This document shows positions 5,818-32,391 of a stretch of 34,106 nt of DNA, one piece after another. A program made the position numbers and the translations under genes. Source of the stretch: Planctomycetia bacterium (GTDB taxonomy: Bacteria > Planctomycetota > UBA8108 > SXIK01). The stretch is from assembly GCA_005772855.1 (NCBI GenBank), contig SXIK01000076.1, forward strand, positions 1 to 34,106, read 5' to 3'. Position 1 is the first letter of the stretch. Every line of letters begins with the position of its first letter. The notes beneath the pieces are model-generated. The model was not told the origin of the DNA. It was given only the letters and a program-made list of their open reading frames with translations, and ran no database searches.

Positions 5818-6345
5818 ATGTTCTCGGCGCTGACACCACTCCGCGCAGGAGTTCCGCGCGTACCCCGCATCCTGGCCGGGTCTCTCGGCCTTGTCCTGTC
5901 CCTGTTGGCAGCGGCGTGCGATCCCCCCCAGTCAGTTTCACAGACCGACCCGAAAGACCGACCCAAGGCGACCAGTGTTGCGCAGCCAACTGCCCCCCCT
6001 CAGGCGACGAAGCTGCCGGCAGGAGTCGTGGAGTTGACCGACGCCAATTTTGCTTCCGAGGTCCTCGAGTCGAAGACCCTCGTCCTGGGCGACTTCTGGG
6101 CTCCCTGGTGCGGGCCGTGTCGTATCCTGAATCCAACGATTCAAGAGCTCGCCCGTGAGTACTCTGGCCGGGTCAAGGTGTGCAAGCTCAATATCGACAC
6201 GAGCCCCAAGACCGCCCAGGGCTACCAAATAACGTCCATTCCACGTGTTTGGCTTTTTCGCGATGGCAAGCCGGTCAAGAAGATTGCAGGACTCAATCCG
6301 AAGGGAAACTACACCCGGATCCTGGACCATGAGCTCAAGTCCTGA
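5818..6345 (+). CDS. Thioredoxin-domain lipoprotein
   Basis: A membrane-anchored thiol-disulfide protein of 175 residues. The signal segment ends LLAAAC, so Cys34 is the likely lipidated residue. A Pro/Thr-rich linker (residues 35-66) leads to a classical thioredoxin fold with WCGPC (Cys98 and Cys101) and the cis-Pro loop TSIPRVWLFRDGK. The CGPC motif is that of reducing thioredoxins. Outside the cytoplasm it could reduce cytochrome c apoproteins or other exported thiols, but nothing nearby fixes the partner. ATG 5818 is well supported by AAGGAG eight bases upstream. It contrasts with the predicted selenocysteine thioredoxin-fold protein at 31519-32391. Confidence 0.92.
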   Translation: MFSALTPLRAGVPRVPRILAGSLGLVLSLLAAACDPPQSVSQTDPKDRPKATSVAQPTAPPQATKLPAGVVELTDANFASEVLESKTLVLGDFWAPWCGPCRILNPTIQELAREYSGRVKVCKLNIDTSPKTAQGYQITSIPRVWLFRDGKPVKKIAGLNPKGNYTRILDHELKS

Positions 6346-31505: not shown

Positions 31506-31518
31506 GGGAGGGTTTCCC

Positions 31519-32391
31519 ATGAATCCAAGATTTTCTGCAACTGCTTTCATTGGTCTCCTGGCGCTTGGCGCAGGCAACCCTACTTTCGCTGGAACTCAAG
31601 GAGACTCCTGCCTCGAGAGCTGGGGCTTGTTGAATTTTCAGCCAGGGAGCGCGAGTTTCGGCAAGACGGTGGAGAGCACGTCGTACCGGTCCCGAACGAC
31701 GGTGATCCTCTTGCTAGCGAGCTGGTGAGGCTTCTGCCAAAGTCAGGCCTCCAGGATGGAGGCCATGAAGTCGGATTTCGTGATTGCGGGTCTCGATGTG
31801 GACGTGGTCGCGATCAATGTGATCGCAGCTGAAACGTCCCAGAGCGGGCTCACCTCACGCTGTACCTTCGACCTCCTCCAGGACACTGCTCAAGTGCAGG
31901 CGTGGAAGCTCATGGGTGGCTCGAAGGACGACATTTTTATCTATCGAGCCAACGGGCGACTGGCGCCCGGCGGTTACCTGCCAGCTTTCGGCAAGATCGA
32001 TACGAACCTCTCAACAGAAGCCGGGTACCAGAACGTGCTCCGGGCGATCAAGGAAGCTGCAGCTCTCGGGCCTGCGACGACCTGCGACGAGAATCCTCCA
32101 ACTGGCCTCCAGCGCGTCGGCAACGCAAACCAGGATGACCGTCTGGACCTCGCTGACGCCGTCCTGCTCCTCGGGCGCCTTTTCCTCGGGGCCTCGGACC
32201 CACTCCCCTGCGAGGGCGAGGGAATCGAGGGCGAGGGTAACCTCAAGCTCCACGACTCCAGCGGGGACGACAAGGTGAACCTCTCCGATGCCATCTACCT
32301 CCTCAACTACCTCTTTGCCGGAGGCCCGCCAGTTCCCGGCGCAGGCAATTGCCAACCGCTCGAGGGCTGCCCCGACCGCTGCCCGGGCTGA
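31519..32391 (+). CDS. Predicted secreted selenoprotein: SelP-N-like thioredoxin domain with dockerin-like tail
   Basis: 290 residues if TGA 31726-31728 is read as selenocysteine (Sec70). The frame is open on both sides, and the TGA falls at the first position of a thioredoxin motif, W-U70-G-F-C73. A signal peptide precedes it (MNPRFSATAFIGLLALGAGNP). After the motif come QSQASRMEAM and WKLMGGSKDDIFIY. From memory these align with the selenoprotein P N-terminal domain (U-x-x-C, QAS-R/K-L-E-x-L, NGSKDDFLIY). The end holds two dockerin-like calcium motifs (GNANQDDRLDLADAV about 201-215, DSSGDDKVNLSDAI about 245-258) with paired cysteines. GGGAGGG lies six bases before the ATG. A bacterial SECIS-like hairpin follows the TGA. 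Probable role: exported thiol-selenol redox enzyme, substrate unknown. The alternative is a Cys-to-stop mutation or sequence error (TGC to TGA). Confidence 0.85.
31746..31764 (+). promoter_or_regulatory. Bacterial SECIS-like hairpin
   Basis: GGCCTCC (31746-31752), loop AGGAT (31753-31757), GGAGGCC (31758-31764): a perfect 7-bp stem starting 17 bases after TGA 31726-31728. The apical loop begins 24 bases after the TGA and has G at its second position. I recall the bacterial SECIS rule as a small apical loop with a G in the first two positions, 16-37 bases after the UGA. CTTC (31731-31734) can also pair with GAAG (31767-31770) to form a lower helix. The hairpin lies inside the coding frame. Confidence 0.75.

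Follow-up and report, generated by a model that had tools for sequence, protein, structure and literature searches.

An exported, TUGYCR-related bacterial selenoprotein predicted from an in-frame UGA, with a thin tie to animal selenoprotein P

Within the 34,106-nucleotide stretch of DNA analyzed here (the window), one gene almost certainly codes for a bacterial redox protein that is exported and carries selenocysteine (Sec) at its active site. Judging from its sequence and from the genome that carries it, we are highly confident that this is a TUGYCR-related selenoprotein in which UGA 31726 would be read as Sec by means of the hairpin that follows it, and which would bear dockerin-like repeats at the cell surface (Table 1). 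That it is a bacterial selenoprotein whose Sec takes the N-terminal place in a thioredoxin UxxC was already proposed in the initial annotation, and both the full Sec machinery of the genome and the conservation of the TGA bear this out.

Table 1. Features of the selenoprotein gene and its surroundings (window coordinates)
Feature	Position	Strand	Basis and remarks
Shine-Dalgarno-like GGGAGGG	31506..31512	+	6 nt upstream of ATG 31519; direct sequence reading
Selenoprotein gene	31519..32391	+	290 residues with the first TGA as Sec, ending at TGA 32389-32391; read-through translation and homologues with TGA at the equal position
Predicted signal peptide, MNPRFSATAFIGLLALGAGNPTFAG	31519..31593	+	inferred from sequence
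Thioredoxin-fold redox domain, about residues 34-189	31618..32085	+	SelP_N, NF053656, AlphaFold/Foldseek
In-frame TGA, Sec 70, position 1 of UGFC	31726..31728	+	aligned TGA in 14 homologous loci; selA/selB/selC/selD in genome
Resolving Cys 73 (TGC) of UxxC	31735..31737	+	column C73 invariant in alignment
Candidate bacterial SECIS hairpin, GGCCTCC-AGGAT-GGAGGCC	31746..31764	+	G at loop position 2; published bSECIS criteria (PMC13188914)
SelP-like segment, GSKDDIFIYRANGRL, residues 134-148	31918..31962	+	by alignment, the place of the cis-Pro loop of generic thioredoxin-fold proteins
Dockerin-like C-terminal module, two Asp-rich repeats, residues about 195-290	32101..32388	+	Pfam Dockerin_1, sub-threshold

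The genome assembly to which the window belongs (5.03 Mb, 96% complete) encodes selA, selB and selD with scores of 545, 353 and 347 bits, all above curated cut-offs, and a single tRNA-Sec (66.4 bits) for which ARAGORN independently called the anticodon TCA. The initial annotation had asked whether selA, selB, selC and selD are present or the Sec machinery is missing; all four were found. The selD gene has an in-frame TGA of its own, within SCAGUASK, and because this TGA sits at UxxK, the known Sec position of SelD (PMC13188914), the genome holds a second, expected selenoprotein.

Searching 392 genomes of the phylum with the redox domain turned up eight loci whose in-frame TGA matches the UxxC position of the window gene, and a profile search added six more. 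All 14 lie in other genomes of the phylum, and their homology to the window protein extends over both flanks of the TGA, providing the aligned Sec at residue 70 that had been suggested as a check. Their consensus reads [A/S]WYFGHAT-U-x-Y-C-x-x-QFG, followed by N-x-x-G-x-E, PWLQD and [R/K]D[V/D]x-I-x-D, and we found no Cys form of the family in the phylum sample. A single-protein query against genome contigs gave no confirmed match, nor did plasmid and viral collections yield any. Within the class of the window genome (29 genomes), the other 28 contained no member. tRNA-Sec is nonetheless found in most of the genomes of the class that were sampled, so the presence of this tRNA alone does not account for the distribution. 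Counting against our preferred reading are the sub-cut-off NF053656 score and the shifted hairpin position described below, and also two further observations: in five or six of the 14 genomes with relatives, mostly fragmented drafts, there was no strong tRNA-Sec, perhaps through incompleteness of the drafts, and the window gene terminates in TGA where most relatives use TAA or TAG.

Several relatives have features of their own. Genomes G207, G266, G089, G228 and G238 each have a TUGYCR gene with an in-frame TGA and no tRNA-Sec above the Rfam cut-off, which could reflect draft gaps or a divergent tRNA-Sec. Two loci, L047 (G228:C470) and L049 (G089:C135), encode two-domain TUGYCR proteins in one open frame, in which a normal UGYC copy is preceded by an N-terminal one whose active site is degenerate (DATSIYARDQF or DATSLYARDQF, with neither Sec nor Cys). 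Loci L026, L048, L050, L051 and L052 have an upstream extension of ~100-200 residues that is absent from the lipoprotein-type TUGYCR members. L050 and L052, each with two TGA codons, were considered as UxxU forms and rejected, the second TGA being the terminal stop.

When the joined protein was searched against Pfam, its best match was SelP_N (PF04592; 29.7 bits, E 5.4e-7, residues 58-149), above the gathering cut-off of 23.2 bits, as had been anticipated; AhpC-TSA also passed (27.2 bits, cut-off 26) and Thioredoxin scored 22 (cut-off 23.5). The best match in any library was the NCBIfam family NF053656, redoxin_TUGYCR (51.5 bits, E 9.7e-14, residues 35-147). Because this score lies below the curated cut-off of 100 bits, we consider the protein related to NF053656 and do not file it as a member; its identity to members is 22-24%. 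All eight of the first-found relatives match NF053656. None of the TUGYCR relatives matched SelP_N, making the window protein the only tested one of the group to pass that model. Across 148 genomes, a PF04592 search returned only the window protein and one TlpA-like protein (25.2 bits, above the cut-off). Two generic thioredoxin-fold proteins, one of which also passes SelP_N, had AhpC-TSA and Redoxin scores far above those of the window protein. A 2008 Global Ocean Sampling survey described from metagenome reads a UxxC group, "Prx-like 2", that is weakly similar to pfam04592 (E>0.001), counts 99 Sec sequences and includes domain fusions (PMC2398784). Matched by description, not by sequence, it is probably the TUGYCR group. 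Neither PF04592 nor NF053656 appears among the 119 families of prokaryotic selenoproteins inventoried in 2026 (PMC13188914). The window protein is a divergent relative, built of two modules, of an already described family of bacterial selenoproteins; the kind itself is known.

The SelP_N match raises a broader reading, which adds a history to the preferred one and does not exclude it: that no bacterial proteins are closer to the redox domain of animal selenoprotein P (SelP) than the window protein and the TUGYCR group, with the window protein keeping the ancestral Sec form. We consider this possible, if on balance unlikely. In its favor, SelP_N is the top-scoring Pfam family and lies above its cut-off, Sec occupies the equal position in the window protein, SELENOP and TUGYCR, and a human SELENOP N-domain query had the window protein as its top match (E 1.4e-5 at Z=100,000), ahead of generic thioredoxin-fold proteins. 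This query was one human sequence, the only animal sequence used, entered by hand and not drawn from a database, and the pairwise and tree results obtained with it are indicative only. A tree of 27 domains paired the window protein with SELENOP (96/91) and joined both to TUGYCR (96/85); with SELENOP removed, the window protein joined TUGYCR (93/80). SELENOP forms a very long branch in this tree, which weighs against the broader reading, as does the failure of TUGYCR members to match SelP_N.

The similarity to SELENOP is moreover concentrated in one segment, GSKDDxxIYxxxGRL, which contributes roughly two thirds of the window protein's pairwise score against human SELENOP. Masking GSKDD..GRL in both lowered that score from 28.3 to 10.1 bits. 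In the correspondingly masked tree, the window protein, SELENOP and TUGYCR still stood apart from generic thioredoxin-fold proteins (95/85), whereas the window-SELENOP pairing lost its support and was neither supported nor rejected. By our reading of the alignments, all three lack the cis-proline and have [K/R]D[D/V] in its place; relative L023 carries ASKDDVFILDRQNRK at the SelP-like segment. Scanning 84,980 other species genomes with a strict DNA pattern of the GSKDD..GR segment brought up no redox protein, and this also tells against the broader reading. Three matches to the pattern were rejected as not thioredoxin-fold: two ferredoxin-like proteins (Comamonas) and one TetR-like regulator. 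The proposal that this is a bacterial relative of SelP therefore stands as far as a Sec UxxC protein with SelP_N as its best Pfam match, and falls short of a specific ancestor or sister relation: the closest family is NF053656 and the SelP signal is mostly one motif. The window protein seems closer to the first domain of SelP than do the other bacterial proteins compared, although the tie, largely one short motif, is suggestive but thin. Its standing as an "ancestor" of SelP is unproven, and that it is a surviving bacterial member of the lineage that gave rise to the animal redox domain seems to us somewhat more doubtful than the broader reading itself.

The case for read-through, on which the preferred reading depends, comes from homology and not from the arrangement of open reading frames. 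From its ATG the frame runs over 31519-31725, meets one TGA (31726-31728) and continues for 220 further codons; on re-reading, the coordinates, shared phase and single separating TGA of the two frames described in the initial annotation proved exact, and W-U-G-F-C, QASRMEAM and GSKDDIFIY are all present in the protein. By composition at 62% GC, 220 open codons past a stop have a probability of about 0.002. Seven more frame pairs of comparable size, each divided by a stop, occur in the window, so that the arrangement of ORFs, taken by itself, is weak evidence; the TGA at the UxxC position in 14 related loci settles the matter. Such chance pairs in a GC-rich window, together with ATG 31756, which could begin a 211-residue protein, are what speaks for a true stop that leaves a 69-residue stub and a separate downstream ORF (a pseudogene or two genes). 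We judge this very improbable, given that homology spans the TGA, the relatives share it, Sec machinery is present, and the downstream ORF on its own would be missing both the active site and the initial strands of the fold. ATG 31756 lies inside the loop of the candidate SECIS hairpin, and it is there that a mechanical ORF list begins the downstream protein, losing the active site as had been predicted for an ordinary annotation. Less probable still is an assembly or sequencing error turning a Cys codon, TGC, into TGA: the sequence comes from a single contig of a draft genome, but the error would need to have hit the exact position of the TGA in 14 relatives and to be followed by a stable SECIS-type hairpin. 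In the ORF list, the gene is flanked by a RecB-like helicase upstream and a sugar nucleotidyltransferase downstream, which seem to point to no functional partner. Elsewhere in the window (5818-6345, + strand) is a second thioredoxin-like protein, exported-looking and with an ordinary WCGPC active site.

A SECIS-like hairpin had been noted downstream of the TGA and does exist there. Its stem is 7-8 bp, its loop is AGGAU (or GGA) beginning 24-25 nt past the TGA, and its energy is -14 kcal/mol, values that lie within all published limits for bacterial SECIS elements (loop of 3-9 nt, stem of 4-16 bp, G in the first two loop positions, loop 16-37 nt after the UGA and energy at most -7.5 kcal/mol; PMC13188914). 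Equal stability was reached in 0.2% of 20,000 synonymous-recoding draws, and, at equal stringency, a hairpin accompanies 0.65% of all the window's TGAs. The 14 relatives share a 6-bp helix after the TGA (columns 14-19 with 25-30) with an AGUUY-type loop. In this helix 91.7% of cells are paired, against 70% when shuffled, with both sides changed in 22 cells, and the covariation of 0.634 (0.204 shuffled) was equaled in 0/500 shuffles; sliding the helix by one to three columns abolished the signal. The loop starts 16 nt past the TGA in the relatives versus 24 nt in the window gene, and in the alignment the relatives' helix is absent at its position in the window gene. Because the window hairpin does not occupy that position, its presumed function rests on the general bacterial SECIS model.

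The AlphaFold model has a mean pLDDT of 65, with the redox domain mostly at 80-92, and Foldseek assigned it the thioredoxin fold, with DsbE/ResA as best matches (3gl3, 2h1b). The signal peptide has no lipobox Cys, whereas most relatives look like lipoproteins. The C-terminal module scored 14.5 bits over two stretches against Dockerin type I (PF00404), and because this is under the gathering cut-off of 22.9 we call it dockerin-like only. With 96 matches in the genome (the copy in the window and 95 further places), the module is common in this organism; we infer a surface or extracellular location for it. Recent gene transfer from animal SELENOP, which the SelP_N similarity and the GSKDDxxIY segment might bring to mind, is extremely unlikely, since bacterial TUGYCR proteins score closer (L023 44 bits, L025 34 bits) than SELENOP (28.6 bits), the in-frame SECIS is of bacterial type and the C-terminal module is native to the genome.

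Taken together, the exported TUGYCR-related selenoprotein that we favor might be made and act as follows. SelB and Sec-tRNA would read UGA 31726 as Sec under direction of the hairpin, and the signal peptide would take the protein across the inner membrane. Outside the cytoplasm, the U70-G-F-C73 pair would carry out thiol/selenol-disulfide (or peroxide) reduction, U70 attacking the disulfide or peroxide substrate and C73 resolving the intermediate. The dockerin-like repeats may keep the protein at the cell surface or sort it there.

Automatic annotation would break the gene at the active site, so that the selenoprotein would be lost, as would its similarity to SelP. The gene also places a group first reported from ocean reads in the context of a nearly complete genome. 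The literature describes the SelP redox domain as only distantly related to bacterial TlpA/ResA, and Lobanov and colleagues tied the SelP N-domain to these proteins (PMC2397514). With a candidate bacterial group that contains Sec, the origin of the domain becomes testable. Were the proposed lineage true, the domain would have reached animals with its Sec already in place, as a bacterial selenoprotein domain of the TUGYCR group, and Sec would not have been gained afresh in a TlpA-type Cys protein.

Among known systems, TlpA/ResA/DsbE thiol-disulfide oxidoreductases provide the closest solved folds and likewise have an exported redox domain. Unlike the window protein, they have CxxC with Cys and a cis-Pro, and the examples compared score higher with AhpC-TSA/Redoxin than with SelP_N, the opposite of the window protein. 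The N-domain of animal SelP (PF04592) shares with the window protein a UxxC thioredoxin fold, apparent export and GSKDDxxIYxxxGRL. The window protein differs in having a single internal TGA and a dockerin-like C-terminus in place of a Sec-rich tail, and a bacterial in-frame SECIS, and a very long branch separates the two. "Prx-like 2" has in common with it the Sec UxxC and weak pfam04592 similarity. Members of NF053656, the "TUGYCR motif thioredoxin fold (seleno)protein", differ in having T-U-x-x-C where the window protein has W-U-G-F-C (W, not T, before U) and usually RDV where it has KDD; the window protein also lacks a lipobox, has the dockerin-like C-terminus and places its SECIS loop 8 nt further downstream. 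Both nevertheless appear to share the thioredoxin fold, Sec first in UxxC, an LQD motif, export and, by our reading of the alignment, the lack of Pro at the usual cis-Pro position.
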